Source of the DNA: Selenomonas ruminantium subsp. lactilytica TAM6421
GTDB lineage: Bacteria; Bacillota; Negativicutes; Selenomonadales; Selenomonadaceae
Direction of reading: 5' to 3'
Assembly: GCF_000284095.1 (NCBI RefSeq)
Contig: NC_017074.1
Coordinates: forward strand, 1-35,182
DNA: 35,182 nucleotides
Below are positions 7,837-35,153 of the stretch, in pieces; within the stretch, counting starts at the first letter, position 1, and each line of letters begins with the position of its first letter. A model generated the notes under the pieces. The model did no database searches, was not told where the DNA came from, and worked only from the letters and a program-made list of their open reading frames with translations. The position numbers and the translations under genes were made by a program.

Positions 7837-7868
7837 CTAATAGCTATCAGACCTATTAAACCTATTAG
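7837..7868. repeat. CTAWTAG heptamer cluster 1
   Basis: Four heptamers related to CTAWTAG (7837-7843, 7844-7850, 7853-7859, 7862-7868) lie with spacing 7-7-2-7-2-7 just before the 7898 gene. They are candidate binding sites for the ParB-like protein or another regulator. Confidence 0.75.
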
Positions 7869-7897
7869 GTATTGAGACCGGCAAGGAGGAAATAGAC

Positions 7898-8842
7898 ATG
7901 ACAACAGAAATCATTATTGCAGATATTCATATCAAAGCCGCACAGATTGAGTTGAATGAACTTATGGTACGACAGGCCAAAGAACTGGCTGCAGCAAAAG
8001 TAAAGGTTGCCCAGGCCCGCATTGCCAAACTGGACGCACAGCAGGCAGAACGTCCGGCTAAGGCCTTGCAGTATGAGCAGGCGAAGCAGAAGCAGCTTGA
8101 CATTCAGGCCAAGGCCAAAGCCGCAGCTGACAAAAAAGAAGCAACAAAATCGGCGCAGAACGAGAAAATCAGTGCCCGCCTGCAGGATCTTTCGGCAAAA
8201 GTGCCCCAGGAAGAGCTGGCATCCGCCACGGTCAACGAGAACGAACAGATCAGCAAGCAGTTGCCGGCCGCGGAGCAGTACCGTCGCGACCTTTGTGACA
8301 TTGTGTATGAACACAGTCTTGATCTGGAAATTCTTGACATGACGGTCAACGAATTCTATGACACTTATTACAATGAACTGTCGCGCAATCTTGACCAGCG
8401 CTGGAATGAAATGAGTGCAGACCTTATGGCGCCTAGCTTTGAATGCCCAATCGATATGGGTATCTATGAACCGTCGCGCGCCGGGCTGGAAACCTTTGCA
8501 GAACCATGGCTGGAAACTGTACTGGACAATGACCTTGCTGTACTCCATGCCAGCAATGGCGACATATTCGCCAGCAACGTCATTGCGTATATCAACGGCT
8601 ACTGGCATAGCCTTGGTTGCCCTGACAGCGTTCCTGTACAGTGCGGTGGAATCTGGTATAACATTCGCGTTGCTCACCCCGCTAATGACCGGACGCACCA
8701 TTGCGAGTTGTCATTCCTCGACACTGCCGGCCGCGAACACTGCATTGTCATGGAATATACGGCCAACAACGCTGAAATCGACGGGAGTTATGACGACGAA
8801 AGTTATGCAGTTTATGACAGCATTGTAAGCTGCGCCGCCTAA
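7898..8842 (+). CDS. Coiled-coil early protein, unknown function
   Basis: This is a 314-aa protein with a strong SD (AAGGAGG). Residues about 12-130 are an Ala/Lys/Gln/Glu-rich coiled coil (AKELAAAKVKVAQARIAKLD, AKAKAAADKKEATKSAQNEK). The C-terminal about 180 residues form an acidic globular domain with several Trp and Cys (CPIDMGIYEPS, NGYWHSLGCPDSV, HHCELSFLDTAGREHCIVMEY). I do not recognise it. It follows rep and heptamer cluster 1, and ends at a terminator that faces the converging minus-strand gene. A role in replication, partition or host interaction cannot be decided from sequence. Confidence 0.75.
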   Translation: MTTEIIIADIHIKAAQIELNELMVRQAKELAAAKVKVAQARIAKLDAQQAERPAKALQYEQAKQKQLDIQAKAKAAADKKEATKSAQNEKISARLQDLSAKVPQEELASATVNENEQISKQLPAAEQYRRDLCDIVYEHSLDLEILDMTVNEFYDTYYNELSRNLDQRWNEMSADLMAPSFECPIDMGIYEPSRAGLETFAEPWLETVLDNDLAVLHASNGDIFASNVIAYINGYWHSLGCPDSVPVQCGGIWYNIRVAHPANDRTHHCELSFLDTAGREHCIVMEYTANNAEIDGSYDDESYAVYDSIVSCAA

Positions 8843-8865
8843 TCAACCAAACACAATAGCGCAAG

Positions 8866-8912
8866 AAAGGCACTAGAGCGTCGGTATTCACCGAATCCCC
8901 AGTGCCTTTTTT
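8866..8912. terminator. Terminator between converging genes
   Basis: AAAGGCACT (8866-8874) pairs with AGTGCCTTT (8901-8909), with an inner hairpin TCGGT-ATTC-ACCGA (8881-8894) and a six-T run (8907-8912) on the plus strand. The minus-strand gene ending at 8914 meets the same hairpin, but its T-tract is weaker there, so bidirectional use is possible. Confidence 0.8.
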
Positions 8913-8913
8913 A

Positions 8914-9612
8914 TCATTCATTGAAGCCTTTATCAAAAACCTTGTCTGTGAATTTCATTCCGCCACTGGTTCGTTCAAACGAAACTTTGGCGGAGCCATT
9001 CAAATAAGGAACTGTCCAGAATACGGCAAGTTCCTGTACGTCAGGCAGGTCTTCATACGCCTTTGCTGCCATATCGGAGCTAAACATTTCCAGCATTTCC
9101 CTGGACATTTTGCCGCTGTTCTTGCGGTTCCATGTAAGTCGTACAAGGGCAACATAATCGCCGTCCTTCTCCGTCCCCAGATCTGGATTTAGCGTTATGC
9201 TGTCAATAGTTGTCTCGTCGTATCCCTTGACATACTCCCTGAGCTTATCTTCAATCTTGCCTTCTGGGGTATTCCTCCGGGCTTCGGCAGCAGCCCTGGC
9301 TTCTTCCTCCAAAGCCTTTTGTTCTTCAAGGGCCTTTTTATCGGCTTCTTCTTTGGCTTTCTTTTCGGCCAACTGTTGCTGCTTTTTCTGCTCCTGCACT
9401 TGACGCTGAGCTTCATTTGCGGCTTTCCGTTCTGGAGACTGCGTGGCGGCGGCACCAATCCCGCCAATAAGAAATACAACAACAGCAATGGCTAATCGCT
9501 TACTGTAAAACTTTTTGTCTCCGCCTTTTAGGACGCAGATTATCAACTTTACCAAGAAATAACCGCCAGCGACCATTGCCAGCAACACCAACAGACCAAA
9601 AAATGTATTCAT
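8914..9612 (-). CDS. Membrane-anchored coiled-coil protein (probable moron)
   Basis: This 232-aa protein is encoded against the surrounding genes, with SD GGAGGAGG. It has two N-terminal membrane helices (residues 2-27, and about 44-60 ending GGIGAAATQS), then a long Lys/Glu/Ala coiled coil (about 65-125, KKAKEEADKKALEEQKALEE), then a compact C-terminal domain (about 130-232, with DSITLNPDLGTEKDGDYVALVRLTW and ELAVFWTVPYLNG). The C-terminal domain resembles small cystatin-like or DUF4878-like envelope domains in outline only. Single-gene minus-strand placement suggests lysogenic expression. Envelope modification or exclusion of other phages is possible but unproven. Confidence 0.75.
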   Translation of the reverse strand: MNTFFGLLVLLAMVAGGYFLVKLIICVLKGGDKKFYSKRLAIAVVVFLIGGIGAAATQSPERKAANEAQRQVQEQKKQQQLAEKKAKEEADKKALEEQKALEEEARAAAEARRNTPEGKIEDKLREYVKGYDETTIDSITLNPDLGTEKDGDYVALVRLTWNRKNSGKMSREMLEMFSSDMAAKAYEDLPDVQELAVFWTVPYLNGSAKVSFERTSGGMKFTDKVFDKGFNE

Positions 9613-9715
9613 TTAAAAAATCCTCCTCCAGTTCTCTAAACGCAGAACCCTGCAATATCATATATTCTGCTGTGAAAGTGTTTTCCCTTCCCAGCAGGGC
9701 CTCTTTTTATTATTT

Positions 9716-9742
9716 GAAATAATCTGAAAATTATTTCTTTTT
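9716..9742 (+). terminator. AT-rich hairpin with T-tract
   Basis: GAAATAAT (9716-9723), loop CTGAAA and ATTATTTC (9730-9737) form a perfect 8-bp stem followed by a T-tract. It stands between the minus-strand gene promoter region and the structured leader at 9758; as a terminator it would stop plus-strand read-through. Confidence 0.45.
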
Positions 9743-9757
9743 ATTTTCTTTGGGAAT

Positions 9758-9847
9758 AGCCAGAAGCAATCCGAGTAATAAGTTTTTAGAACCACCTCGC
9801 AAGGGGCGGGCTAAAAGTTCATTACGAGCTGGCTTTCAGATAGCCAG
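9758..9847 (+). ncRNA. Structured leader RNA with mutually exclusive helices (riboswitch-like)
   Basis: Four nested helices can be drawn: P1 AGCCAG (9758-9763) with CTGGCT (9829-9834); P2 GTAAT (9775-9779) with ATTAC (9821-9825); P3 TTTTAG (9784-9789) with CTAAAA (9811-9816); P4 CCACCTC (9792-9798) with GGGGCGG (9803-9809), which has one mismatch and a GCAA (GNRA) tetraloop. A second AGCCAG (9842-9847) can take CTGGCT from P1, forming an alternative hairpin just before the SD of the 9873 gene. No known riboswitch class was recognised. The frame through it is open but has no good start. Confidence 0.5.
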
Positions 9848-9872
9848 AGAAAGTATAAAAGAGGTATATATA

Positions 9873-10523
9873 ATGGGAACATTTCATAACGCAAACAGCA
9901 GAATCGGTAAGCTGGGCGAAGGAGCAGCAGCAGAGTATTTCATAAATGCTCTTGACGCCACCAAAGTCGAAGACCTCAGCAAAATCCCTGAGTGGCAGGC
10001 AGTTGACGTTGACATGCGCGTCACCCTTGCGACCGGCTTCCAGTTCCTTGCCGAGGTCAAAGCCGACAGCAAAGACTTCGGCTCAATCTTGGTTGAAATC
10101 GTCAGCAATGACACAAAGCCGCTTGACGATCCGAAACGCCTCGGCTGGATTTACAAGACCAAGGCCGATATCATTTATGTCTATAAATCCTGGACCATGA
10201 GTTTATACGCATTGAACCGCCGCCAGCTTCTTGAATTCGTCCAGAAAGTCGGCAGCAATTATCACTGGTGCTATGGTTACACCAACGACAAAAACGGCCG
10301 CCTCCTGTACCGTTCCAAAAATTTGATTATCCCACGCAAAGAACTGATTGACGCCGGCATTCTTCGCGAAGTTGCCATGCACACCACTGCGCCCATCCGT
10401 CAGAAGGACGGCGAGTATGTGGGTTTCGGTTCCTGGTATCGTTATAACCCCGGCTTTACCTGCAGCGAAAATGTATTCCGTGCCATTGCCCTGAGCACCA
10501 ACAAAATTGTGCCGGCGGCGTGA
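9873..10523 (+). CDS. PD-(D/E)XK nuclease-like protein
   Basis: This is a 216-aa protein from ATG 9873 (SD AGAGG); the open frame extends upstream through the structured leader but lacks an SD there. An N-terminal helix (IGKLGEGAAAEYFINAL) is followed by VDVDMRV (D45, D47) and FLAEVKAD (E61, K63). This spacing matches the D-E-x-K core of PD-(D/E)XK nucleases such as Holliday junction resolvases or VRR-NUC-like enzymes. The C-terminal half (WYRYNPGFTCSEN, IIPRKELIDAG) is unrecognised. It may act in replication-intermediate or packaging-DNA processing, or host DNA attack. Catalysis is inferred from the motif only. Confidence 0.6.
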   Translation: MGTFHNANSRIGKLGEGAAAEYFINALDATKVEDLSKIPEWQAVDVDMRVTLATGFQFLAEVKADSKDFGSILVEIVSNDTKPLDDPKRLGWIYKTKADIIYVYKSWTMSLYALNRRQLLEFVQKVGSNYHWCYGYTNDKNGRLLYRSKNLIIPRKELIDAGILREVAMHTTAPIRQKDGEYVGFGSWYRYNPGFTCSENVFRAIALSTNKIVPAA

Positions 10524-10596
10524 ATAAGAAAAACTGATCTCCGTAATATAGATAGTGTAGAACAAAAACAAAAACTTTTTCCTGGAGGAATCAAAA

Positions 10597-10884
10597 ATGT
10601 ACGAAAATCTTGACCTGAACAACGAGAACGACCTTTTCACCGCAGTCCTGGTGGCCCTGGACGAACACCGCTATGCTGACGCCGTTGAGCTTTCCACCAC
10701 CTTCCTGAACGAAAGCGACAACATTGAACGGCGCCTGGCTATCTACCAGTTATATCAGTTAAGCCTTAAAGCATTAAAGAGAAAAAGCCATGACAAAGCC
10801 GCCAAAGAACTTGACGAAATCCTCGACGTTGCCTATGACGAGAACCATGACGTCTATGAGTTTGCTTTTACCCATACCTGTTAA
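10597..10884 (+). CDS. Small helical protein, unknown function
   Basis: A 95-aa acidic protein (SD CCTGGAGGAA) made almost wholly of predicted helices: NENDLFTAVLVALDEHRYADAVEL, ERRLAIYQLYQLSLKALKR and KAAKELDEILDVAYDEN. The helix-turn-helix pairing recalls a TPR-like unit, suggesting a protein-protein adaptor. It sits in the early gene block between the nuclease-like gene and heptamer cluster 2. I cannot assign a function. Confidence 0.7.
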   Translation: MYENLDLNNENDLFTAVLVALDEHRYADAVELSTTFLNESDNIERRLAIYQLYQLSLKALKRKSHDKAAKELDEILDVAYDENHDVYEFAFTHTC

Positions 10885-10886
10885 AC

Positions 10887-10916
10887 CTAATAGCTAATAG
10901 ACCTAGTAGCTATTCA
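10887..10916. repeat. CTAWTAG heptamer cluster 2
   Basis: Heptamers CTAATAG (10887-10893), CTAATAG (10894-10900), CTAGTAG (10903-10909) and a degenerate CTATTCA (10910-10916), with 7-7-2-7-7 spacing, lie 27 bp before the 10944 gene. Confidence 0.75.
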
Positions 10917-10943
10917 CTCTATATATAAGGAAGGAAATGCATA

Positions 10944-11123
10944 ATGACAACAACAACCTCAGCTCCTCAAAATCCCTCTTCAATACAGAACATGCTTGAC
11001 CTTATCCAGCAGCAATCTGAACAGCTCGACGCTGAGATCCGGCGTCTTGCCGAAGTCGAAAACCGTCTGGCAGAAACCTGCAGACGTATCACCACCAACA
11101 CCAACAATAAGGAGGACAAATAA
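10944..11123 (+). CDS. 59-aa coiled-coil protein
   Basis: ATG 10944 is preceded by AAGGAAGGAAATGC. The product has a Thr/Ser/Pro-rich start and then one long amphipathic helix (SIQNMLDLIQQQSEQLDAEI, then RRLAEVENRLAET), likely a dimeric coiled coil, and an Asn/Thr tail. Its 3' end carries the SD (AAGGAGG) for the sigma-like gene 2 bp downstream, so the two are translated together. A cofactor of that regulator is a reasonable guess. Confidence 0.75.
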   Translation: MTTTTSAPQNPSSIQNMLDLIQQQSEQLDAEIRRLAEVENRLAETCRRITTNTNNKEDK

Positions 11124-11125
11124 AA

Positions 11126-11518
11126 ATGTTCGTCGCAAAAACAACCGAAGGGAATAAACATAAGAATGGCCCCGTTTCCCAGCCACTATATAACCATTAT
11201 GAATATGACCGCATAAATGACAGTGTTGACGTTCGTATCCGCGAAATTCAACACTTTGCCGAATTCCTTCACTCCACTGACATTTCTTCCCGCATAGTTG
11301 CGGACGAAATCGTTCAGATCCTGAAAAAAATTCCGCGCCTTGAAAGAGCGGCCATTTTCTTCCGCCATGGTCTTGACCTTAAATGGGAAGACGCGGCCAA
11401 AAAGCTCAACATGAGCCGCAGCTCTACCCAGCGCTTAACCAACAGCGCTTTGCAGCATTGCCGTGAAATTCTTGAACAACAGTTTAAAGAGCAACAACAG
11501 CAGAAGGAGAGAGAATAA
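11126..11518 (+). CDS. Sigma region-4-like late transcription regulator (ArpU/RinA-type)
   Basis: This is a 130-aa protein. Residues about 70-115 (RLERAAIFFRHGLDLKWEDA, AKKLNMSRSSTQRLTNSAL) form a sigma-70 region-4-like helix-turn-helix, as in ArpU-, RinA- and other phage late activators; no region 2 is present. The N-terminal half is a helical domain without recognised features and the C-terminus is Gln/Glu-rich (EQQFKEQQQQKERE). It lies two genes before the end of the early operon, directly before the first 39-bp late element and the packaging genes. It is the obvious candidate to recognise those elements with host RNA polymerase. Binding is inferred. Confidence 0.75.
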   Translation: MFVAKTTEGNKHKNGPVSQPLYNHYEYDRINDSVDVRIREIQHFAEFLHSTDISSRIVADEIVQILKKIPRLERAAIFFRHGLDLKWEDAAKKLNMSRSSTQRLTNSALQHCREILEQQFKEQQQQKERE

Positions 11519-11521
11519 AAA

Positions 11522-11797
11522 ATGACCTGGTATAAAGACACTACTTCGTATTTTTACATGAATCGTAAAGTGCAGAGAGCAAAATCAGCTAACCATTATT
11601 CCGCCGCTGAAATAACTAAGCTGTTCAATTCCTGCACAAACGACTTCCAGCGCGACTTCCTGATTGACCGTTTGTATTTTCTTGACGGCTCGTCCCGCTA
11701 CCCAGCAAAAGATCGAGGCATTATGACTGCCCGCCAAATGTTATCCGATCAGTATCTGGCCGAGAATTATTCCACTACCCTCGACAATTTCAAATAA
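11522..11797 (+). CDS. 91-aa protein, unknown, last early gene
   Basis: This gene starts 3 bp after the sigma-like gene's stop, with an SD (GGAGAG) inside that gene's end. The product is basic at the start (MNRKVQRAKSANHY) and helical (SAAEITKLFNSC, DFQRDFLIDRLYFLD), ending acidic. No family recognised. Tight coupling to the sigma-like gene and to the terminator at 11804 suggests a regulatory partner of the late switch. Confidence 0.65.
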   Translation: MTWYKDTTSYFYMNRKVQRAKSANHYSAAEITKLFNSCTNDFQRDFLIDRLYFLDGSSRYPAKDRGIMTARQMLSDQYLAENYSTTLDNFK

Positions 11798-11803
11798 TTA
11801 TCC

Positions 11804-11836
11804 ACGCCCTCAAAAAACGAGGGCGTATTTCTTTTC
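11804..11836 (+). terminator. Terminator of the early operon
   Basis: ACGCCCTC (11804-11811), loop AAAAAAC and GAGGGCGT (11819-11826) form an 8-bp perfect stem followed by a T-rich tract. It ends the early operon just before the first late element at 11838. Confidence 0.8.
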
Positions 11837-11837
11837 T

Positions 11838-11876
11838 GGGCGTTTCGCGCTATCCCGACGTATTTCATATATTGAG
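11838..11876 (+). promoter_or_regulatory. 39-bp late element A (packaging operon)
   Basis: GGGCG (11838-11842), then CGACGTATT (11857-11865) and CATATATTGAG at the fixed spacing shared by all copies. Read as a promoter, GGGCGT and the TATTTC/TATATT region could be -35 and -10. This copy precedes HNH and terminase genes and directly follows the early terminator. The AT-rich part is the most divergent of the intact copies (TATTTCAT instead of TATTATAT). Confidence 0.65.
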
Positions 11877-12002
11877 AGTATTTATGTATTCCAACAGCAA
11901 CACACAACACTTATATATATGCCGGCGCCCTAAACCTGTCTACTTTTGCTTAACCCTTGCCGGCTGAATCTACAACAAATCAAGAAGAAAGGAGCAATAT
12001 AC

Positions 12003-12335
12003 ATGGCAGCACCATGGGCAAAGACCTTCTACAACAGCAAACAGTGGAGATACCTTGCAAGAGTATACCGCGAATCCCACTTCCATGTGTGTGAGCGGTG
12101 TGGAAAACCGGGAGCAAGAGAAGTCCACCACAAGATACACCTTACCCAACGTAATGTATCTGATCCAAATATAGCTCTTAATCCTGATAACCTCATACTC
12201 CTTTGCTATGACTGCCACAACGAAGAACACGAACGAATGAAGTATCGTAAGCCTGTCATTAGAACATATACCTATGACAGCCGAGGCAATATAGTATCCG
12301 TTACTGAGCCTGAAACATATCCCCCCCTACCCTAA
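12003..12335 (+). CDS. HNH endonuclease adjacent to terminase
   Basis: This has 110 aa from ATG 12003 (SD AAAGGAG); the frame upstream to 11946 has no SD. The protein shows FYNSKQWRYLAR, CERCGK, the HH of REVHHKIHL, NPDNLILLCYDCHNEEH: a complete HNH motif with two CxxC zinc knuckles. HNH proteins of this size next to terminase genes are known packaging cofactors that help the terminase cut cohesive-end sites in cos-type phages (for example HK97 gp74). The gene order HNH, small terminase, large terminase supports that role. Confidence 0.9.
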   Translation: MAAPWAKTFYNSKQWRYLARVYRESHFHVCERCGKPGAREVHHKIHLTQRNVSDPNIALNPDNLILLCYDCHNEEHERMKYRKPVIRTYTYDSRGNIVSVTEPETYPPLP

Positions 12336-12469
12336 GTCTTTTATTTATCTCCCAAGACCTGCGCGCCCCCTCGTTCGCGAAAAATCCTTAGTTTTCAGCA
12401 TAGGGGGTACTTATAGAACAGCCTATAACTATAATTTTTTGTTATACCTCTCAGAAAGAAGTGATACCC
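12336..12469. other. Possible cos site region
   Basis: This gap between HNH and small-terminase genes has a G/C-rich block (GCGCGCCCCC at 12361-12370, then TCGTTCGCG) and an inverted repeat CCCCCTA (12323-12329) / TAGGGGG (12401-12407). In HNH-encoding cos phages the cohesive end is often close to these genes, so this is the best visible candidate. It has no direct proof. Confidence 0.35.
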
Positions 12470-12820
12470 ATGACCACAGCAACAAGAAGAGCTGCGGCAA
12501 CCCGTTACCAGCATAAACTAGAAAAGCTTTTCACCAATGCTCCTGAAACCAAGCGCGAAGCCGCCAATCTCCTCATTAAACGGGCAGCATTTTTGCTTGC
12601 CACTGAAGACGAGCTTCAGAGCCTCATGCAGCAAGAGGGGCCAATCGGCGTGTATGAGAACGGCAGTCAGAGCGGCGTTTGTATTTCCGCTTACCTGAAA
12701 TCCTATACAATGGCTAACCAGCAGCTGCTGTCAACGATAAAGCAGCTCACCGTATTCCTGCCGGCTGACGACAGTGCTTCGCAGTCGGCCTTAAATAAGT
12801 TTTTTGCCGATCATAAATAA
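12470..12820 (+). CDS. terS: Terminase small subunit (P27-like, putative)
   Basis: The ATG at 12470 is used; a GTG at 12461 in the same frame is possible. The 116-aa product is helical and begins with a basic stretch (TTATRRAAATRYQHKLEKLF). It ends with a region typical of small terminases of the P27 type (SAYLKSYTMANQQLLSTIKQ, then LTVFLPA). It would recognise the packaging site and recruit the large subunit. Identification depends on both this pattern and its place between HNH and TerL. Confidence 0.7.
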   Translation: MTTATRRAAATRYQHKLEKLFTNAPETKREAANLLIKRAAFLLATEDELQSLMQQEGPIGVYENGSQSGVCISAYLKSYTMANQQLLSTIKQLTVFLPADDSASQSALNKFFADHK

Positions 12821-12835
12821 AGGAGAACGCTATTC

Positions 12836-13000
12836 ATGACATTATCTGAACAGATTGCTTACGCCAAGAAGAATTTGCCGAATCTGTTGACCAACTACTT
12901 GCGCCAACAGGAAAACGAAGCCTATATGCGAGGTTATAAAGACGCCCTTCATTGCCAGCCGCCAGTCTATGACGACGACGACAACATGATCCATGCTTAA
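12836..13000 (+). CDS. 54-aa protein between terminase genes
   Basis: It has SD AAAGGAGAA, ATG 12836 and stop TAA at 12998-13000, which overlaps the ATG of the large terminase (TAATG). The peptide is helical (LSEQIAYAKKNLPNLLTNYL) with a terminal run of four Asp. It is not recognised. Its translation probably couples to terL, which has no SD before its first ATG. Confidence 0.7.
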   Translation: MTLSEQIAYAKKNLPNLLTNYLRQQENEAYMRGYKDALHCQPPVYDDDDNMIHA

Positions 13001-14682: not shown

Positions 14683-14687
14683 GGTTT

Positions 14688-14726
14688 GGGCGTTTTGCGG
14701 CACCTCGACGTATTATATATATTGAA
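14688..14726 (+). promoter_or_regulatory. 39-bp late element B (portal/capsid operon)
   Basis: GGGCG (14688-14692), then CGACGTATTATATATATTG at the fixed distance, ending GAA. It lies in the 93-bp gap between terL and the portal gene, oriented with them. It probably starts the head-tail structural operon. Confidence 0.7.
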
Positions 14727-14775
14727 TGAAAACGTTAATTAAAAAAATAAGGAAAGGAGGAAAAACCTTTTCTAT

Positions 14776-16618: not shown

Positions 16619-16623
16619 TCTAC

Positions 16624-16653
16624 CTAATAGCTATTAGACCTATTAGCTATTAG
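16624..16653. repeat. CTAWTAG heptamer cluster 3 (before the capsid gene)
   Basis: Four near-perfect heptamers (CTAATAG 16624-16630, CTATTAG 16631-16637, 16640-16646 and 16647-16653) with 7-7-2-7-7 spacing make an overall near-palindrome 18 bp before the capsid ATG. This is the most regular of the five clusters. Confidence 0.85.
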
Positions 16654-16671
16654 GAATAAAAGGAGAATACA

Positions 16672-17844
16672 ATGGATAGAATTCACGAAATCGAAGTCCG
16701 CATGGCTGCCATTGTCGAGGCCTCCAAAGAGGCCGAAGGCGAAGAACTAAAAGCGCTGGCGGACGAGGCTGACAAGTTGACAGCCGAAAAAGAAGAGCTG
16801 CGCAAGGCTGCTGAAGAGGCAGAACAGCGCAAAGCTATTGCTGAAAAGTTAAACGCTGGCGAAATTGCTGGCAACCACATTGACATTGCAAAGGAGAACA
16901 AAAAAATGGATATCAATTCTACCGAATACCGTTCCGCATTTAAGGATTATGTTGAAACTGGCGTTATGAACGAGGAGTTCCGCGCAGTTGCTATGACGGC
17001 ACAGAATTCCGCAGTAATCCCGCCGACCGTCATGAATCAGATTGTTGAGAAAATGACAAAAGAAGGTTCTGTACTTAGTTTGGTGCGTCGTATTGCGTTC
17101 CCGGCTGGTGCGGCAATTCCAAAGTCTGAACTGGCAGCAACGGCAAACTGGATTGCAGAAGGTGCTGAAATCAAAGCAGACGGCAAGGGAACGACGCAGG
17201 TAACGTTTGCAGCATTCCCGCTCGCGGCTGCTATCGGCGTATCCTTCAAGTTACATGTTCAGTCTCTCAGCGCCTTTGAAAATAGCGTTGTGGAGAATGT
17301 GTCTCGCGCAATGGTCCGCGCTCTTGAATCCGCTATCATTTCTGGTGACGGCAACGGTAAGCCGCAGGGCATTGTAACGGCGAGTGTTCCTGCAAACCGT
17401 ATCGTAGAAATCAAGCAGCCGAAATACACTGACCTCATTGCAATGCTCAAGGCAGTACCTGCTGCTTACAAAGCTGGTTCTGTTATCGTCATGAATGAGA
17501 ATACATACCTTGACTTTGAAGGCATGGTTGACAACAATGGACAGCCGATTGCTCGTACGAACTATGGCCTGAACGGCGCAGAGAATTTTGTACTCAAAGG
17601 CAAGAAAGTTGTGACGACCGACTTCCTGCCGAGCCTTGACGAAGCTGGCGCAGGTGACGTCGTTGCGTTTGTTTACAACCTTGACAACTACGTCCTGAAT
17701 ACGGCTTATGACATGGATCTGCAGGTATATCAGGACAACCCGACTCGCAATAAGGTATTCCAGAGCTACATGCTTGTTGACGGTAAGCCGGTAGACACAG
17801 AAGGCTTAGTGCTGGTTAAGAAAGCCGCTTCCGCTAAAGCCTAA
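16672..17844 (+). CDS. Major capsid protein (HK97 fold)
   Basis: A 390-aa capsid precursor. Residues 1-78 are a charged coiled coil (EELKALADEADKLTAEKEEL) equal to the HK97 delta/scaffold domain. The mature part starts near STEYRSAFKDYVETGVMNEE and contains IPPTVMNQIVEKM, NWIAEGAEIKADGKGTTQ and ISGDGNGKPQGIV, all usual in HK97-type capsids. The prohead protease upstream should remove the N-terminal domain. An internal SD (AAGGAG, 16891-16896) with ATG 16906 sits exactly at the scaffold/capsid boundary. SD for the full-length form: AAAGGAG. Confidence 0.95.
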   Translation: MDRIHEIEVRMAAIVEASKEAEGEELKALADEADKLTAEKEELRKAAEEAEQRKAIAEKLNAGEIAGNHIDIAKENKKMDINSTEYRSAFKDYVETGVMNEEFRAVAMTAQNSAVIPPTVMNQIVEKMTKEGSVLSLVRRIAFPAGAAIPKSELAATANWIAEGAEIKADGKGTTQVTFAAFPLAAAIGVSFKLHVQSLSAFENSVVENVSRAMVRALESAIISGDGNGKPQGIVTASVPANRIVEIKQPKYTDLIAMLKAVPAAYKAGSVIVMNENTYLDFEGMVDNNGQPIARTNYGLNGAENFVLKGKKVVTTDFLPSLDEAGAGDVVAFVYNLDNYVLNTAYDMDLQVYQDNPTRNKVFQSYMLVDGKPVDTEGLVLVKKAASAKA

Positions 17845-17862
17845 GAATTGTTGAAAACACCG

Positions 17863-17898
17863 ATACCGCTGGCCATGTTTGAGCCAGCCGGTCGGTAT
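17863..17898 (+). terminator. Hairpin after the capsid gene (partial terminator)
   Basis: ATACC-GCTGGC (17863-17873) pairs with GCCAGC (17883-17888) and GGTAT (17894-17898), with a 5-nt bulge. No good T-run follows, so it may slow polymerase or protect the abundant capsid mRNA rather than terminate. Confidence 0.5.
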
Positions 17899-17933
17899 TA
17901 TCCATTGAGTTTTAAAGAAAGGAGCTTCGGGCA

Positions 17934-20829: not shown

Positions 20830-21264
20830 ATGGAAAATATGGAATCCAAAAGAGTCTTCTACGGCACTTATGGCCAAATGTGGCTCGACGGCGAGCTGCT
20901 TGGTGAAGTTGAAGAGCTGAAAGCTACCGTAAAACTCGACAAGATTGAAGTAAAAATGTCCCGCCACTTGGGCAAATGTTATAAGTCTGTTGGCTGGACT
21001 GGCTCTGGCTCATTCAAACTGCATAAGGTATCCAGCTTCATGATTGAAAAGCTTGCCCCTCATATGAAGGAAGGTAAGCAGGTTCTCGTTACTATCGTCA
21101 GCAAAATGTCCGATCCTGACGCCATTGGGACGGAGCGTGTAGTTCTTCGTAACTGCCAAATTGATAGTGTCGACCTCATTAACTGGAAACTGGGTGCACT
21201 GTCCGAGGAAAGCTATAACTTCACCTTTGAAGACTACGACATTCTCGAAAGCGCAGACGCTTAA
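20830..21264 (+). CDS. Tail tube protein (XkdM-like)
   Basis: This has 144 aa from ATG 20830; an in-frame GTG at 20818 overlaps the SD (AGGAG) and is unlikely. YGTYGQMWLDGELLGEVEEL, KATVKLDKIEVKMSRHLGK, YKSVGWTGSGSFKLHKV match XkdM-type inner-tube proteins, whose rings stack inside the sheath. It lies next to the sheath gene as in PBSX. Confidence 0.92.
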   Translation: MENMESKRVFYGTYGQMWLDGELLGEVEELKATVKLDKIEVKMSRHLGKCYKSVGWTGSGSFKLHKVSSFMIEKLAPHMKEGKQVLVTIVSKMSDPDAIGTERVVLRNCQIDSVDLINWKLGALSEESYNFTFEDYDILESADA

Positions 21265-24797: not shown

Positions 24798-24830
24798 GCC
24801 TCCTCTTTTTAACTATAGGAGGTTTTCTCT

Positions 24831-25595: not shown

Positions 25596-25601
25596 GTATA
25601 A

Positions 25602-27026: not shown

Positions 27027-27031
27027 GCATT

Positions 27032-27070
27032 GGGCGTTACGACAGGCGCCGACGTATTATATATATTGAG
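27032..27070 (+). promoter_or_regulatory. 39-bp late element C (baseplate operon)
   Basis: GGGCG (27032-27036), then CGACGTATTATATATATTG and GAG at the fixed spacing. It lies in the 71-bp gap between the hub gene and the XkdR-like gene, in the same orientation, and probably provides an internal late start for baseplate, fibre and lysis genes. Confidence 0.7.
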
Positions 27071-27097
27071 ACTACGAGTTATGAAAGGAGGACGTCA

Positions 27098-27978: not shown

Positions 27979-27979
27979 C

Positions 27980-29637: not shown

Positions 29638-31988
29638 TGAGTACAACGGTAAACAAAAAATGGGAATCCACATTCCCGACCACTATTGGAAATCAGACGC
29701 GGCCGGATAAAGGCGTTGACGACACTCTGTCTTTTGAGACTGGCGCATTTCCGCAGTTTATGAGCACAGATCCGGTTCGCTATGACAAGCAGAATGCGGC
29801 CATGAGTCAAGCAATGAGTAACGACGCCCGACTCAACGAGAAAATAAATAATTCCAATGCCGAACTGGATAAGCATAAAAAAGATCCTGCCGCTCATACT
29901 GCTGGAATCGGCGGTAATGCGGCCACGGCAACAAAGCTAAAAGAAAAAAAAGCACTGCGGTTGTCTGGAAAGGCCAAAGGCGAGGCAGAATTTGACGGTT
30001 CTGCGGACGCCAACATAAGCGTAACCGACGTAACTGCTGACCGCTGCACCGGCAACTCCGCCACGGCTACGCAAACGACCGCTACCGCCGCGAACGGAGG
30101 AGCAGCCGACCTTGTTAAAGGCAGTATGGCTGGTGGTGACAGCTTCCGCATTCGCGTTGGCGGAAAGGACGACAATAGCTGGGCTGAAATTGCCACAGGA
30201 GACAATGGCAACGAGACCATTACTGTAGCACAATACAGCGGCGCATTTGCTACGAAAGTCAAAGAAGCTACACTGTTGGACGGAGCCGGAAACACCGCAT
30301 TTCCTGGCAGGGTGAGCGCTTCAAATGGTTTCAAAGGCCACCTTTATGACAAGGCAGATACGGCAGGACGCGCGGACGTTGCAACAACAGCAGACAGACC
30401 AACCGGTTTTACTGGATCAGACGCTGGCGAATGGGGCAACACTGTAGGCACTCATGTAGCTGGCTGGAGCACTAAAAACGGTGGTTCTATTGACTTCCGC
30501 GAAAACGGCAGCCAGGTCAACATGAAGGTTGACGGCGTTATGTACCAGCGCGAAGGAGCGCGTTTGGTTATCGACGACAGCACTGTCAACAATTATGCTC
30601 CGACGAAAACTGGCGGCGGTGCTTCCGGAACTTGGGGAATAAGCGTAACAGGAAATGCCGCAACAGCAACGAATGCCGGACATTTGAGTGACTTCAATGG
30701 CGGACATGTTGTAAATGTTGCGGATAAGGCAGCAGACGCGTGGGCCAGCCTTGGCAGTTCAAATTCAGGTTGGTGGCTTAAGAGCATACATACCAATGCA
30801 AACACTCCAGCTTGGCTTTCTAATAACTATTCAGCCGGCATTGCGTTTGGCGGATCAGATACAAAAGGCGTAATCAGTACAGCTTACAACGGCCCAAGAG
30901 TTAAATTTGCAGGCGGCAATGGCACCAAACCGGTTTGGTGGTACGGTCTCAATGGTACAAGCGGTAAGACATACGACCTGAACAATATGCCGTCTTCCTG
31001 GAATAATGTTGCGGGCAAACCGGCCACTTTTGCGCCTTCGCCACATAACCATGACAGTTCATATCCTTCTACGACTGGAGCTAGAGCCAGCGGCACTTGG
31101 GGCATTAATATAACAGGCAACGCCGGTTATTCTGCTCACAGTGGCAAGGTAGACAATGACAACGCACAAATGCGGTTCCATTGGGACGGTTCAAAAGGCA
31201 ACCAGCCAACCTGGGTATGGGGAAGTAACGACTCAAGTAATGCGTATGTCTTTAACCCAAAAAATTTCAGCGTGAACTACTCAAACAGCGCGGGAAATTC
31301 TGACAAACTGGACGGTTATCATGAAAATAGCTTCCTGCGCTACCGTGACGCTCAGGGCAATGGTGTTGGAACATTATGGAGCCAAATAGGTATTCGTCAG
31401 TACAGTAACGGACGACCAGACGGTTTGGGCGAAGGATATAACTACGGCGCGGTCGTTTCACTGCCCGGCAAGGACTCCCGCCTTGATCTTTGGTACAATA
31501 GCCAGAGCAGCAGCAACGGTGACGGACTTTACTACCGCAGCGGGTGGGGATCAGGTAAGAAGGGCTGGCGGCGTATTCTCGACAGTGGCAACTTCAACAA
31601 CTGGGCGCCGACCAAGACTGGCGGTGGAGCCAGCGGAACTTGGAAAATCAATGTCACTGGTTCAGCTGGCAGCGTAGCGTGGAACAACGTCACGGGTAAA
31701 CCGGGCTGGACCACAGACTCAACTAAAGCTGCAAAAACGGGGTGGACGCGACTCCCTGGCAACTTGATTATGCAGTGGGGCGTCGTCAGCGGTAAAGGTA
31801 CGCTGACTATCACATACCCCATTGAATTCACAACTTTCGCGGTGCCTGTCATGAATGGTACTGCTGACGGAACATGGGATAACGACGACCAAAACCCGGC
31901 AATCATAAAACAGTCTTTGACAGGCTTTACGGCTAATTCGTCTCTTTCAAACCAAGCCACTATCAACTGGATAGCTATCGGTAAGTAA
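29637..31988 (+). CDS. Tail fibre protein
   Basis: A 783-aa receptor-binding fibre. The N-terminal about 100 residues attach to the baseplate (PDKGVDDTLSFETGAFPQFM, then MSQAMSNDARLNEKINNSNA). The shaft is rich in Gly/Ala/Thr/Asn with many GNAATAT and D-type repeats. Three copies of a fibre repeat are visible: PTKTGGGASGTWGISVTGNA, STTGARASGTWGINITGNAG and PTKTGGGASGTWKINVTGSA. The end (GNLIMQWGVVSGKGTLTITY, then NWIAIGK) is the usual tail-fibre tip domain ending. It decides host range. No tail-fibre chaperone of known type is adjacent, though the small genes after it are in that place. Confidence 0.93.
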   Translation: MSTTVNKKWESTFPTTIGNQTRPDKGVDDTLSFETGAFPQFMSTDPVRYDKQNAAMSQAMSNDARLNEKINNSNAELDKHKKDPAAHTAGIGGNAATATKLKEKKALRLSGKAKGEAEFDGSADANISVTDVTADRCTGNSATATQTTATAANGGAADLVKGSMAGGDSFRIRVGGKDDNSWAEIATGDNGNETITVAQYSGAFATKVKEATLLDGAGNTAFPGRVSASNGFKGHLYDKADTAGRADVATTADRPTGFTGSDAGEWGNTVGTHVAGWSTKNGGSIDFRENGSQVNMKVDGVMYQREGARLVIDDSTVNNYAPTKTGGGASGTWGISVTGNAATATNAGHLSDFNGGHVVNVADKAADAWASLGSSNSGWWLKSIHTNANTPAWLSNNYSAGIAFGGSDTKGVISTAYNGPRVKFAGGNGTKPVWWYGLNGTSGKTYDLNNMPSSWNNVAGKPATFAPSPHNHDSSYPSTTGARASGTWGINITGNAGYSAHSGKVDNDNAQMRFHWDGSKGNQPTWVWGSNDSSNAYVFNPKNFSVNYSNSAGNSDKLDGYHENSFLRYRDAQGNGVGTLWSQIGIRQYSNGRPDGLGEGYNYGAVVSLPGKDSRLDLWYNSQSSSNGDGLYYRSGWGSGKKGWRRILDSGNFNNWAPTKTGGGASGTWKINVTGSAGSVAWNNVTGKPGWTTDSTKAAKTGWTRLPGNLIMQWGVVSGKGTLTITYPIEFTTFAVPVMNGTADGTWDNDDQNPAIIKQSLTGFTANSSLSNQATINWIAIGK

Positions 31989-31997
31989 ATTAGGATC

Positions 31998-32090
31998 GTG
32001 ATTGATATAAGCATAATAATAAGTACAGCAGTTTTGCAGGGCTACGACCAGAACAGCGGCATTATTGAAATCTACGGACTCAACTACTAA
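31998..32090 (+). CDS. Possible 30-aa protein after the tail fibre
   Basis: A GTG at 31998 opens 30 codons (IDISIIISTAVLQGYDQNSG, IIEIYGLNY) to TAA at 32088-32090, in the same frame as the fibre gene after its stop. The SD is weak (TTAGGAT). The ending QGYDQNSGIIEIYGLNY looks protein-like. It may be a small gene, or a fibre extension reached only by stop read-through; it could also be chance. Confidence 0.35.
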   Translation: MIDISIIISTAVLQGYDQNSGIIEIYGLNY

Positions 32091-32104
32091 TGGAGGTATT
32101 CAAC

Positions 32105-32383
32105 ATGACTCAGGAAGAAATTGATTATATGAACGATCCATTCGTGCAGAAGGCAGGCGAGGCTATCGCCCCCTCTTATTTTGAGCTTGTATTCAGGTTT
32201 AAGTGCCAGCCTTTTGAATCCGTGCCTGTTTACTGGCGCAAACAGGTTCGCGACTACTACGAGGCGCATAAACATGAATTGTATGACTACAGCCCGGCCA
32301 CGGATTATTTTAACCCTATCCTGCCGGACGAAGCACCTGCTGACGTAGAAAAGAAAAAAAACGAGGACAACGGCAATGAGTGA
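32105..32383 (+). CDS. 92-aa fibre-associated protein, unknown
   Basis: ATG 32105 is chosen because GGAGG (32092-32096) lies 8 nt before it; an upstream reading at 32090 overlaps the SD. The protein (TQEEIDYMNDPFVQKAGEAI, FRFKCQPFESVPVYWRKQVR, DYYEAHKHELYDYSPATDYF) is acidic with several aromatic residues. It is in the place of a tail-fibre assembly or XkdX-like protein. Function unknown. It overlaps the next gene. Confidence 0.65.
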   Translation: MTQEEIDYMNDPFVQKAGEAIAPSYFELVFRFKCQPFESVPVYWRKQVRDYYEAHKHELYDYSPATDYFNPILPDEAPADVEKKKNEDNGNE

Positions 32384-32651
32384 CAGGGAACTGCACGACG
32401 TCGTTGTACAACAGTTAAACAGTATGAGCGCATGGCAGCATGACACCACCGAACTGCTGCGCTCAATGTCAGAGCGGCTGGCTCGTCTTGAGAATAGTGT
32501 CGACAATCTGGAGAAGCGCCGGGAAGCAGACGACGGCAAGCTGACAGAACTGGAAGCTCTTAAAAATCAGGGCATTGGTGCCAAAGGAGTAGTTGCAGCG
32601 ATTGTTGCAGCTATTCCTGGCATTGTTGCTCTACTGAAACTGTCTTTGTGA
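32376..32651 (+). CDS. XhlA-like lysis membrane protein
   Basis: A 91-aa protein starting inside the end of the preceding gene. Residues 1-65 form a coiled coil (LLRSMSERLARLENSVDNLE) and the C-terminus is a single membrane helix (GVVAAIVAAIPGIVALLKLS). This is the layout of XhlA of PBSX, which works together with a holin to release the amidase. It is followed 10 bp later by the holin-like gene. Confidence 0.8.
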   Translation: MSDRELHDVVVQQLNSMSAWQHDTTELLRSMSERLARLENSVDNLEKRREADDGKLTELEALKNQGIGAKGVVAAIVAAIPGIVALLKLSL

Positions 32652-32661
32652 GGAAGTAAAA

Positions 32662-32877
32662 ATGAAAGCGATTATGTATATTCTTCAAAACTGGACGCTT
32701 ACTCATACTTTTGTACTGGCTTTTCTTGCCGGCTGGTTCGCCAATGGTTTTGGCGCAGGCCTAGATCTCACGGCCCTGGCCACAGCTTACGGCGTAGCTG
32801 CTGGCGTCAATGTTACAAAGTACGGCATTGCGTCCACATTGAATTCAAAACCTGGAGAAAAGCCAGAGGTGAAGTAA
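32662..32877 (+). CDS. Holin-like membrane protein
   Basis: A 71-aa protein (SD GAGGAAG) with two hydrophobic segments (LTHTFVLAFLAGWFANGFGA; TALATAYGVAAGVNVTKYGI) and a charged C-terminus (KPGEKPEVK). Size, topology and place before the amidase fit a class II holin. No specific family was recognised, so an alternative small membrane role is possible. Confidence 0.7.
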   Translation: MKAIMYILQNWTLTHTFVLAFLAGWFANGFGAGLDLTALATAYGVAAGVNVTKYGIASTLNSKPGEKPEVK

Positions 32878-33390
32878 ATGGTAGATCTGGAAAATCCATT
32901 CCGAGACGGCAGACCTGGCAAGGACGGCAAGGACGGCCTGTCAGCTTATGACATAGCAGTAAAGCATGGGTATGTCGGCACAGAAGAAGAATGGTTGGCC
33001 AGTCTGCATGGCAGGGACGGGCGTGACGGTTTAAGCGTTCAAGGGCCAGCAGGCGTTCAAGGGCCGCAGGGTGAAAATGGCTTATCCGCTTATGAGCTTG
33101 ACTGTCAGGAAGGTTTTGTTGGTACAAGGCAGGAATGGCTGCAGAGCTTAAAGACACAAGGAAAAAAGCTGCCAGAGCTGCAACAGGACATACTCAATAT
33201 GGCCTTACCTGCCACTGCGGAGAAAAAGTTTCTCACAGGCGCGCAGGACGTAATCGGCGCAGTCAATGAAACAAAAAGCTCAACGCAGGCAGCAGTACAA
33301 ACACAAACCGCTATAACAAACATGCTGACCATTCAACTCGCCCAGCTCAATGCTAAGGTGAAAATGATAGAACAGCAACTGAAGAAGTAA
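32878..33390 (+). CDS. Collagen-like protein between holin and amidase
   Basis: A 170-aa protein starting directly after the holin stop. It contains Gly-X-Y runs (DGRPGKDGKDG; GRDGRDG; QGPAGVQGPQGENG) between two copies of a motif: SAYDIAVKHGYVGTEEEWLA and SAYELDCQEGFVGTRQEWLQ. The C-terminal 60 residues are a coiled coil (TNMLTIQLAQLNAKVKMIEQ, QLKK). Such collagen-like modules with SAY...GTEEEWL repeats occur in phage fibres and cell-surface proteins of Bacillota. A trimeric rod attached to virion or used at lysis is likely. Confidence 0.75.
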   Translation: MVDLENPFRDGRPGKDGKDGLSAYDIAVKHGYVGTEEEWLASLHGRDGRDGLSVQGPAGVQGPQGENGLSAYELDCQEGFVGTRQEWLQSLKTQGKKLPELQQDILNMALPATAEKKFLTGAQDVIGAVNETKSSTQAAVQTQTAITNMLTIQLAQLNAKVKMIEQQLKK

Positions 33391-33406
33391 AAAGGGAGAA
33401 TTATTC

Positions 33407-33955
33407 ATGAAAGTATTTTTGAATCCAGGACATGATAGAACTTATGACTCCGGCGCTTGTCACTGGAGCGGCACACGCGAGGCAGACATTGCCTGGCTGA
33501 TCGGCTGCAAAGTACAGGAGTATCTGGAAGCTGCCGGCGTAGAAACAATGATTATGCAGAGCGACAACCTTTGCGGCTGGGACTGTGACCGCGAGGATCG
33601 CCCCAAGGCTGTATGCAAGACTTCTGATAACTGGGAGGCCGATCTCTTCGTATCAATTCACTGCAACGCATTCAACCAAGAAGCCAAAGGTACAGAAGTG
33701 GAGTATATTTCCGCCGCTGGCGCAAAGGCTGCCCAGTGCATTCAGGATCAGATTGTGGACGCACTTGGCACTGTAGACCGCGGCATAAAAGTTCGTCGCG
33801 ATCTCATGGTTCTAAAGCATACGGACGCCGTAGCTGTGCTGGTCGAATGTGCATTCATTGATAACGACGAAGATCATGAAAAACTGGTTAACCGTACGGA
33901 CGAATTCGCCGCAGTTATTGCACGAGGCATTACGGATTACGAACTGACTCTGTAA
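33407..33955 (+). CDS. N-acetylmuramoyl-L-alanine amidase (Amidase_3 endolysin)
   Basis: A 182-aa zinc amidase (SD GGGAGAA) that cuts the bond between MurNAc and L-Ala in peptidoglycan. Motifs: LNPGHD (H9), TREAD (E25), FVSIHCNAF (H85) and VLVECAFIDN (E147, catalytic). It is a single catalytic domain without binding module or signal peptide, so it depends on the holin for release. It ends the late operon. Confidence 0.94.
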   Translation: MKVFLNPGHDRTYDSGACHWSGTREADIAWLIGCKVQEYLEAAGVETMIMQSDNLCGWDCDREDRPKAVCKTSDNWEADLFVSIHCNAFNQEAKGTEVEYISAAGAKAAQCIQDQIVDALGTVDRGIKVRRDLMVLKHTDAVAVLVECAFIDNDEDHEKLVNRTDEFAAVIARGITDYELTL

Positions 33956-33965
33956 ATATAGAAAG

Positions 33966-33995
33966 CCCCCATGCGCGCGCATGGGGGAATTTTTT
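33966..33995. terminator. Terminator at the end of the late operon
   Basis: A 22-bp perfect palindrome (CCCCCATGCGC with GCGCATGGGGG, 33966-33987) is followed by six T residues (33990-33995) on the plus strand. The minus-strand gene ending at 33994 meets the same hairpin; its T-tract is poorer, so it may act in both directions. Confidence 0.9.
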
Positions 33996-34404
33996 ACCAA
34001 GGTATATTGTTCGCTTTTTTAAACCCTTCTTGGTATATGTGAAACAGAGTAAGGGCGATAAATTGACCAACAGTATTAGGTTTCACCAATTGCCAGTCTT
34101 TGTCAGAAGTAGTTTTAACATAACGACCATTTTTATCATAAACAGCCACTGCTTCATTTTTCAAAAATATACTGTCTACACTTCCATACCAAACCGCAAG
34201 GTTAATGAGTTCATAATCTCCGTCCGCTTTCACATTTTTCAATTTCACGCGAAGTTCCTTCTTGTCCCATTTCCCGGTATTGCGGTCAACATAGAACTTT
34301 GAATATTCATTTGAAAACAACGGGCACCAATCCGCAGCAGAACAGTGGGAAAGCGGCAAAAACAACGAGAACAGCAACGTAACAACTACAAATACTTTTT
34401 TCAT
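33994..34404 (-). CDS. Secreted moron protein, copy 1
   Basis: This has 136 aa from the ATG at 34404 (SD GGAGGTC); an in-frame start at 34428 lies upstream of the SD. A signal peptide (MKKVFVVVTLLFSLFLPLSH, cleavage near CSAA-DW) is identical to that of the next gene. The mature protein has YSKFYVDRNTGKWDKKELRV, KLKNVKADGDYELINLAVWY and YDKNGRYVK. The W-(x)-YVDR-(x)-VKVVKADG-(x)-DKNGRY plan resembles surface-adhesin-E-like small secreted proteins. It is probably expressed in the lysogen to alter the host surface. Tandem copy of 34500-34910; the two have diverged mostly in the middle. Confidence 0.8.
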   Translation of the reverse strand: MKKVFVVVTLLFSLFLPLSHCSAADWCPLFSNEYSKFYVDRNTGKWDKKELRVKLKNVKADGDYELINLAVWYGSVDSIFLKNEAVAVYDKNGRYVKTTSDKDWQLVKPNTVGQFIALTLFHIYQEGFKKANNIPW

Positions 34405-34474
34405 AAAGACCTCCAGCAAAAATGACATGACTCATTCCATATTAGCAGTATTTCATGGCCATGTCCATTTTTCT

Positions 34475-34505
34475 GGGCGAAATGTTGAGGGCCGACGTAT
34501 TATTC
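34475..34505 (+). promoter_or_regulatory. 39-bp element D, truncated copy
   Basis: GGGCG (34475-34479) then CGACGTATTATT, after which the consensus is lost (TCAGG) at the stop codon of the downstream minus-strand gene. It lies upstream of moron copy 1 in the opposite orientation. The match to element E shows that it was duplicated together with the moron gene. Confidence 0.55.
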
Positions 34506-34910
34506 AGGAATTTTGTTATCTCTTTTGAAATGTCCTTGGTATAATTCAAACAGCTTAAAGGCGAGAACTTGACCTGCCGTATTCGGCTTCACCTCAATCC
34601 AATTGTCGTCCGAGAAGTGGAGAATATAACGGCCATTTTTGTCATAAACAAACACTGTACTGTTTTGCAAATATATCTCATTTCCACTTTCGTATCTGGC
34701 AATGAGGTTAATGAGCGAGTATTCGCCGTTTGCTTTCACAACTTTTAATCCTACATGGAGGTCCATTCCGTCCCATATTCCACTGCTACGGTCAACATAA
34801 ACGGTTTTCTTATCGTCAGACAGTATCCAGTACCAATCCGCAGCAGAACAGTGGGAAAGCGGCAAAAACAACGAGAACAGCAACGTAACAACTACAAATA
34901 CTTTTTTCAT
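34500..34910 (-). CDS. Secreted moron protein, copy 2
   Basis: This has 136 aa, SD GGAGGTC. The same 25-residue signal peptide as copy 1 is followed by ADWYWILSDDKKTVYVDRSS, GIWDGMDLHVGLKVVKANGE, YSLINLIARYESGNEIYLQN and VYDKNGRYILHF. The two copies agree at the start, in the YVDR and DKNGRY blocks and at the end (FKLFELYQGHFKRDNKIPE against FHIYQEGFKKANNIPW). About 95 bp upstream is also conserved. The middle parts differ strongly, consistent with diversifying selection or an old duplication. Confidence 0.8.
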   Translation of the reverse strand: MKKVFVVVTLLFSLFLPLSHCSAADWYWILSDDKKTVYVDRSSGIWDGMDLHVGLKVVKANGEYSLINLIARYESGNEIYLQNSTVFVYDKNGRYILHFSDDNWIEVKPNTAGQVLAFKLFELYQGHFKRDNKIPE

Positions 34911-34956
34911 ATAGACCTCCAGAAAATGACATGACTCATTCCATATTAGCAGTATT

Positions 34957-35025
34957 TCATGGCCATGTCCACAATTCTGGGCGAAATGTTTGGTCCCGAC
35001 GTATTATATATAGTGAGAATGCCAT
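34957..35025 (-). CDS. Possible 22-aa leader peptide before moron copy 2
   Basis: On the minus strand AAGGAGG (35040-35034) stands 8 nt before ATG 35025 and opens 22 codons (MAFSLYIIRRDQTFRPELWT, then WP) to TGA at 34959-34957, about 45 bp before moron copy 2. It runs straight through element E. It may be a leader ORF that controls the downstream gene, or a remnant. The truncated duplicate at 34475 keeps the frame but lacks start and SD. Confidence 0.35.
   Translation of the reverse strand: MAFSLYIIRRDQTFRPELWTWP
34979..35017 (+). promoter_or_regulatory. 39-bp element E (before the parA terminator)
   Basis: GGGCG (34979-34983), then CGACGTATTATATATAGTG and GAG: one change from the consensus. 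On the plus strand the only thing downstream is a terminator at 35051-35076, so as a promoter it would make a roughly 60-nt RNA. On the minus strand it is upstream of moron copy 2. Confidence 0.6.
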
Positions 35026-35050
35026 AACCTTTTCCTCCTTATTTATATGA

Positions 35051-35076
35051 AACCACCCTGCTCAGGGGTGGTTTTT
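35051..35076 (+). terminator. Terminator upstream of parA
   Basis: AACCACCC (35051-35058), loop TGCTCAG and GGGTGGTT (35066-35073) form a perfect 8-bp stem running into a T-tract (to 35076, then GTTTTG). It insulates the parA promoter from upstream transcription. Confidence 0.85.
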
Positions 35077-35090
35077 GTTTTGTCCGCAGC

Positions 35091-35119
35091 TTCCCTTCTA
35101 TCGCAAGTTGTTGTATAAT
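35091..35119 (+). promoter_or_regulatory. parA promoter
   Basis: TTCCCT (35091-35096, weak), a 17-bp spacer and perfect TATAAT (35114-35119), about 60 bp before the parA ATG across the circle junction. The -10 box is inside the first heptamer of cluster 5, so binding there would block transcription. Confidence 0.65.
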
Positions 35120-35153
35120 AGCTACTAGGTTTAATAGGTTAATAGGCTAATAG
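35115..35153. repeat. CTAWTAG heptamer cluster 5 (parA operator / candidate parS)
   Basis: Five heptamers (ATAATAG 35115-35121, CTACTAG 35122-35128, TTAATAG 35131-35137 and 35139-35145, CTAATAG 35147-35153) cover the parA -10 box and leader. By analogy with other type I partition loci, a site next to parA is the expected binding site of the partner protein. The flank TAGGTAGATAC recurs at cluster 4. Confidence 0.8.

Follow-up and report, generated by a model that had tools for sequence, protein, structure and literature searches.

Dispersed arrays of a palindromic heptamer as a putative ParB-binding centromere in a probable phage-plasmid of Selenomonas ruminantium

What do repeated clusters of one short palindrome do in an element that carries a plasmid partition locus beside the structural genes of a phage? 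The question is raised by contig NC_017074.1 of Selenomonas ruminantium subsp. lactilytica TAM6421, which was analysed over its full 35,182 bp (forward strand) and is referred to here as the window. It encodes ParA, an overlapping ParB-like protein, and terminase, portal, protease, capsid, connector, sheath, tail, tape-measure, baseplate and endolysin proteins, and it contains five arrays of a 7-bp sequence. From the sequence comparisons reported here, we consider it probable that the arrays form a dispersed centromere to which the ParB-like protein binds, and that binding also represses parAB.

Units were defined as CTANTAG with at most one mismatch and arrays as at least three units. By this definition, all five clusters proposed in a first-pass annotation of this DNA were confirmed, ending 29, 34, 18, 63 and 29 bp before a start codon. 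Array C1 (7837-7868; four units, steps of 7, 9 and 9 bp) precedes the open reading frame (ORF) that starts at 7898. Array C2 (10887-10909; three units, steps of 7 and 9 bp) is followed after a 7-bp step by a unit with two mismatches (10910-10916) and precedes a 59-amino-acid ORF at 10944 and then the gene for a sigma-70 region 4-like protein. Array C3 (16624-16653; four exact units, steps of 7, 9 and 7 bp) precedes the capsid gene; C4 (20728-20766; five units, steps of 7, 9, 8 and 8 bp) occupies the gap between the sheath and tail-tube genes; and C5 (35115-35153; five units, the same steps as C4) precedes parA. The arrays comprise 21 heptamers in total (4, 3, 4, 5 and 5, the two-mismatch unit of C2 being uncounted). 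Each unit is palindromic around its middle base, gaps of 1 to 2 bp occur inside the arrays, and the spacing originally read as 7-7-2-7 was borne out as opening steps of 7 and then 9 bp in all five.

The signal lies in the clustering of units rather than in the number of single exact heptamers. When the window was simulated 200 times with a first-order Markov model, arrays averaged 0.02 and never exceeded 1, compared with the five observed, and exact CTAWTAG is only modestly enriched (10 observed, a number attained by 1 of 100 shuffles, versus 3.66 expected), both being post hoc figures, since the pattern was taken from the same sequence that was then scored. A better control was provided by a search of the host genome (3,631,933 bp, 10 contigs) for three consecutive YTANTAR units with spacers of 0 to 3 bp: all six forward places fell within this element, inside four of the five arrays, and a backwards control pattern gave two forward places. 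Array C1 was not among the six because one of its units reads CTATCAG.

The partition locus itself has the layout of a type Ib ParABS system. The parA gene (1-783, plus strand) encodes a small, 260-amino-acid Walker ATPase (PHROG_164, E = 1.9e-63; Pfam AAA_31, E = 1.1e-42) that lacks an N-terminal helix-turn-helix (HTH) extension, as in ParA-Ib proteins, and has the Walker motif KGGVAKTT from residue 11. The gene for the ParB-like protein (776-1528, plus strand; 250 amino acids) lies directly downstream and overlaps the end of parA. Upstream, in the putative parA promoter region, C5 stands between parA and a terminator-like hairpin (35049-35075, plus strand, from a consensus scan), which separates C5 and parA from the region before them. 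The first-pass annotation had placed C5 over the -10 box of parA. A TATAAT does overlap the start of the array, but the promoter scan listed only a minus-strand promoter there (35142 to 35115, overlapping C5) and no plus-strand sigma-70-like promoter inside any of the five arrays.

The 776-1528 product has no Pfam or PHROG match at E = 0.001, and no ParB-family (KorB/SopB-type HTH) domain was found in it in Pfam (E up to 10) or in PHROGs (E up to 0.001). A candidate ribbon-helix-helix (RHH) segment spans about residues 97 to 136. The segment from residue 97 (FSRISVF...) resembles a strand-helix-helix pattern and is the sole part that BLASTP aligns well with the relative described below; residues 92 to 139 align to RHH-like ParB proteins of other plasmids with hhalign probabilities of only 21 to 47% and E values of 0.0002 to 0.001, each for a single comparison. 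We treat an RHH fold as probable for this protein, although profile tests confirmed it neither here nor in that relative. Relatives are scarce. A single-sequence search of IMG/VR recovered only the element's own record, and none was found in the genome_contigs and plasmids collections or in 21 further genomes from the genus. At the level of the family, 4 of 189 genomes matched at E = 0.01: the host itself, G174, and, weakly, G114 and G115. A profile built from the window and G174 proteins matched 2 of 380 genomes of the class, those same two, and weakly listed an ORF directly after ParA in locus L158 (E = 0.06). Four unannotated records of the phage collection carry a ParA 36 to 40% identical to that of the window.

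The G174 protein, the only convincing relative of the ParB-like protein found, provides the most informative comparison. Its ParA, on contig C63, is the closest relative of the window ParA among the 189 genomes (55% identity; the others listed reach at most 44%), and the ParB relative directly follows it (36% identity over residues 85 to 160; BLASTP, 41% over 37 residues). This locus (17,790 bp) has heptamers of its own, of a different sequence: it contains 25 copies of TKAWTMA, 23 of which lie between 1174 and 4159, in five groups within 3.0 kb around parAB. Simulations gave a mean of 5.1 and a maximum of 12 heptamers in 200 runs and no group in 500 runs; these statistics are also post hoc, as the motif was taken from the same DNA. 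The group at 1174-1237 is flanked by the 3' ends of two convergent ORFs, 472-1164 and 1310-2386, and a promoter role is therefore unlikely for it. Only ParA matched when 37 window proteins were compared with the G174 contig at E = 1e-5. Several ORFs of that contig resemble VirB4, VirB11, VirD4 and other transfer proteins, and we think, judging by eye from its ORF list, that it is a conjugative plasmid. The G174 locus yielded no CTANTAG array and the window no TKAWTMA array, and three further parA-bearing contigs of the host (C3, C6 and C9) yielded neither. The part of the earlier proposal that envisaged a dispersed ParB centromere including the parAB promoter region thus draws indirect support from a related parAB locus with arrays of its own, neither motif being arrayed in the other element.

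The structural genes have a different set of relatives. Loci L090 and L091 have 19 and 20 genes, respectively, in common with the window, and in the same order. The protease-capsid junction measures 13 bp in both, compared with 53 bp in the window, and the sheath-tube junction 16 bp (L090) and 15 bp (L091), compared with 155 bp. The search for CTANTAG arrays was negative for L090, for L091 together with both end pieces of its record, and for the examined part of L092. Because these junctions lack an array, C3 and C4 stand outside the shared late-gene plan; they may have arrived with the parAB module. ParA was matched in none of the three records behind L090, L091 and L092, a result that the search output itself warns against reading as proof. 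In the two end pieces of the L091 record (G189; L124 and L125), ORFs judged by eye include a serine recombinase-like protein and a Cro/CI-like HTH protein. They also include a reverse-transcriptase-like protein, which is close to repeated genes that resemble one another and may be part of a diversity-generating element.

We postulate that the ParB-like protein binds the palindromic heptamers as side-by-side dimers, three to five per array, and that the five arrays jointly would serve as the centromere, moved by ParA when the cell divides. Bound at C5, between the hairpin and parA, it would also repress parAB, as suggested by the position of C5 and by the behavior of RHH-type partition systems. 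The operators of KorB are scattered, and the centromere sites of phage-plasmid N15 are dispersed in its genome. Partition proteins that repress genes from several sites have already been described for plasmids (omega and KorB). A close likeness is to the type Ib delta/omega system of pSM19035, in which three promoters are covered by 7-bp repeats that the RHH-type ParB, omega, binds (PMC9499535), so that arrays of 7-bp units stand at several places and overlap promoters, including that of parA (PMC9499535, PMC5016525). The omega units are nonpalindromic (WATCACW) and form consecutive runs of 7 to 10, whereas those of the window are palindromic and number 3 to 5 per array, with 1- to 2-bp gaps; here, moreover, the ParB-like protein has 250 residues and a putative RHH fold, and the arrays lie among phage genes. 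KorB of RK2 (IncP) likewise represses plasmid transcription as well as acting in partition (PMC5577506, PMC11790492); however, it is described as a DNA-sliding clamp and is an HTH-type ParB (PMC5016525), and no such domain was recognised in the protein studied here. In N15, the partition protein SopB uses several inverted-repeat centromere sites, IR1 to IR4, but the prophage is linear (PMC7205306) and SopB is an HTH-type ParB (PMC5016525). The circular phage-plasmids phiCD38-2 and pVv01 combine ParA-Ib with a ParB-III or RHH partner (PMC8026635), a likeness by description, not by sequence; the available part of that source does not mention dispersed arrays. Finally, the stoperators of L5-clade mycobacteriophages are also spread through the genome, most of them away from promoters; they differ in being 13-bp sites, up to about 30 in number and mostly in one orientation, that are bound by an immunity repressor blocking elongation (PMC6550527).

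Several observations weigh against a dispersed ParB centromere. The pairing of protein and motif is backed by a single relative, whose motif was read from the same DNA. Pfam did not find the RHH domain; an RHH profile ranked the ParB-like protein third of 11 window ORFs (E = 1.5) and, at E = 0.5, listed neither it nor the G174 relative among 14,829 ORFs from 181 sequences; and structure predictions had a mean predicted local distance difference test score (pLDDT) of 41.1 for the ParB-like protein alone and 38.4 with one relative, giving no usable fold. Full activation of ParA in pSM19035 is not achieved with interrupted arrays (PMC9499535), and the arrays here have gaps of 1 to 2 bp: the 9-bp step after the first two units, present in all five, means that none has the four or more contiguous, gapless heptads of an omega-type site. 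Runs of CTANTAG are also present in 4 further genomes among the 380, none of which matches the window ParB profile. G112 has tandem runs on at least five contigs, G077 on at least two and G104 on at least one, and G366 has a run of heptamers (L182 to L188); all of these confound pattern searches. Among viral contigs, the array search gave four stretches, two of them the element's own record. One of the others, L024, an unrelated phage contig judging from its ORF list, has a dense array at 5867-5950 (groups of three and seven near-CTANTAG heptamers between two ORFs), and no relative of the window ParB was found in its examined part. The remaining stretch, L023, was rejected as unrelated from its ORF list; its three heptamers lie inside an ORF.

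Could the arrays instead be operators of a phage repressor or of another, unrecognised DNA-binding regulator, with parA as one more target and no centromere at all? All five arrays precede genes, as operators would, and candidates for such a regulator exist in the several window proteins that have no PHROG match at E = 0.001, including those at 5029-5457, 7898-8842, 9873-10523 and 10597-10884. Moreover, C1 and C2 leave two of the six reading frames open (one for C2 when its degenerate unit is included), so that stop codons by themselves would not keep these two out of genes; C3, C4 and C5 close all six frames and must therefore be intergenic. We nevertheless regard this explanation as unlikely: arrays of like construction accompany parAB in G174, on a contig where ParA was the sole match at E = 1e-5 among 37 window proteins, one of them lies between convergent ORF ends, where no promoter is expected, and the relatives of the structural module have none. 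Still less probable is an origin of the arrays as simple heptanucleotide repeats, expanded between genes and without a protein partner. The runs in G112, G077, G104 and G366 show that such repeats occur in the class; however, slippage of a 7-bp unit would not yield the 2-base spacer that makes the second step 9 bp in every array, and the triple pattern is found nowhere else in the host genome.

The sigma-70 region 4-like protein (11126-11518, plus strand; PHROG_36, E = 8.5e-8) is a candidate late regulator. Its match to Pfam Sigma70_r4_2 (E = 1.2e-5, 25.3 bits) is just under the curated cutoff of 25.7. In favor of the arrays being its sites, that is, late promoters or activator sites, two of them precede late genes and another precedes the gene pair containing the regulator's own gene. 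A second repeated motif appears to fit this protein better than the heptamers do. TGGGCG-N13-CGACGTATTATATATA occurs at 11837-11875, 14687-14725, 27031-27069 and 34978-35016, always on the plus strand and in gene gaps; three copies are exact and one has two mismatches in its 16-base core, with a partial copy near 34474. The distance from TGGGCG to TATTAT is 18 bp in three of the four copies, which is a sigma-type promoter spacing (the 11837 copy reads TATTTC), and the motif resembles a phage late promoter. Heptamers and this motif occur together in the last gap only, on opposite sides of the terminator-like hairpin. A role of the arrays as sites of the sigma-like regulator is thus highly improbable.

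Does the ParB-like protein, as a centromere-binding protein, also control phage genes? It had been proposed that the arrays repress lytic genes in the plasmid state. Their upstream position says little in favor of this proposal, since three arrays are forced into gaps by their stop codons and most genes lie on the plus strand. Nor is it favored by L090 and L091, which lack arrays, or by the G174 group that stands between convergent genes. There are 17 gaps of at least 30 bp; five hold arrays and four the second motif, one of these gaps holding both, counted on a gene list without minus-strand genes and without part of the ORFs. The four arrays other than C5 may slow transcription through their gaps, and C2, in front of the gene pair with the sigma-like regulator as its second member, would be the likeliest to matter; even so, it is doubtful that ParB controls the late regulator and the structural genes, which would be the surprising aspect of the system. 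A literature search, in which most subscription journals were not covered, gave no title on ParB controlling late phage genes among the matches listed.

The boldest form of this idea is that the partition protein doubles as the prophage repressor, so that the state of segregation sets the choice between lysis and lysogeny and no CI-type repressor is involved. ParB at C2 would then hold down the gene pair ending in the sigma-like late regulator, the TGGGCG promoters driven by that regulator would express the late genes, C3 and C4 would act as roadblocks ahead of the capsid and tail-tube genes, and segregation and late transcription would both be released once ParB left the DNA. This, too, is offered tentatively and is hardly likely. 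The absence of a visible CI-like repressor, remarked on earlier, is borne out within the 40 protein regions (39 genes) compared with PHROGs, where no integrase and no CI- or Cro-type repressor family was matched; 11 of the 40 had no match at all at E = 0.001, and the scan did not cover every ORF. In this respect the element may also differ from the L5-clade phages, no immunity repressor having been recognised in those regions. If the dispersed centromere is real, arrays within a structural-gene operon would allow a test of whether segregation and lysogeny control are one system, and two related parAB loci with different heptamers would be useful for mapping how such ParB proteins read DNA.

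Other partition loci of the family offer a further comparison. A profile built on the RHH-like segments of 11 among 17 examined ParA loci recovered the gene downstream of parA at 16 of the 17, the exception being the G174 relative. At the end of host contig C9 (G000:C9; L174, 11606-11726), a ATGTACATA-like array with a 9-bp period lies upstream of parA and is probably the centromere of that contig; a small gene with an RHH-like segment follows parA. The same search found no direct-repeat array upstream of parA in host contigs C6 and C3, only inverted repeats. With looser motifs, several sites in C6 that are distant from parA showed groups, as did one site within the C9 parB gene, and such scans are therefore to be treated cautiously.

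This element is most probably a phage-plasmid with a circular genome. Its partition genes and its head, contractile-tail and lysis genes are observed directly; circularity and replication as a plasmid are inferred, and the contig ends, with an RBS-like (ribosome-binding-site-like) GGGGAGG at the far end and the parA start at base 1, fit a circle. The major capsid protein is encoded at 16672-17844 (plus strand; PHROG_10, E = 2.9e-58). The tail protein at 20830-21264 (plus strand; PHROG_365, E = 4.2e-46, in a frame open from 20818) owes the label of tail tube, given in the first-pass annotation, to this family match and to its place after the sheath gene. A 585-amino-acid protein at 6027 has a weak CHC2 zinc-finger match. 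The stretch 1529-6026 has few convincing genes; it holds, on the minus strand at 1788-2861, a gene for a protein with HTH and LAGLIDADG-like segments that falls in a PHROG endonuclease family. Near the other end, 33994-34428 and 34500-34910 form a tandem duplication, at a spacing of about 506 bp, of a small-protein gene plus flank; the gene lies on the minus strand, and its product has a signal-peptide-like start.

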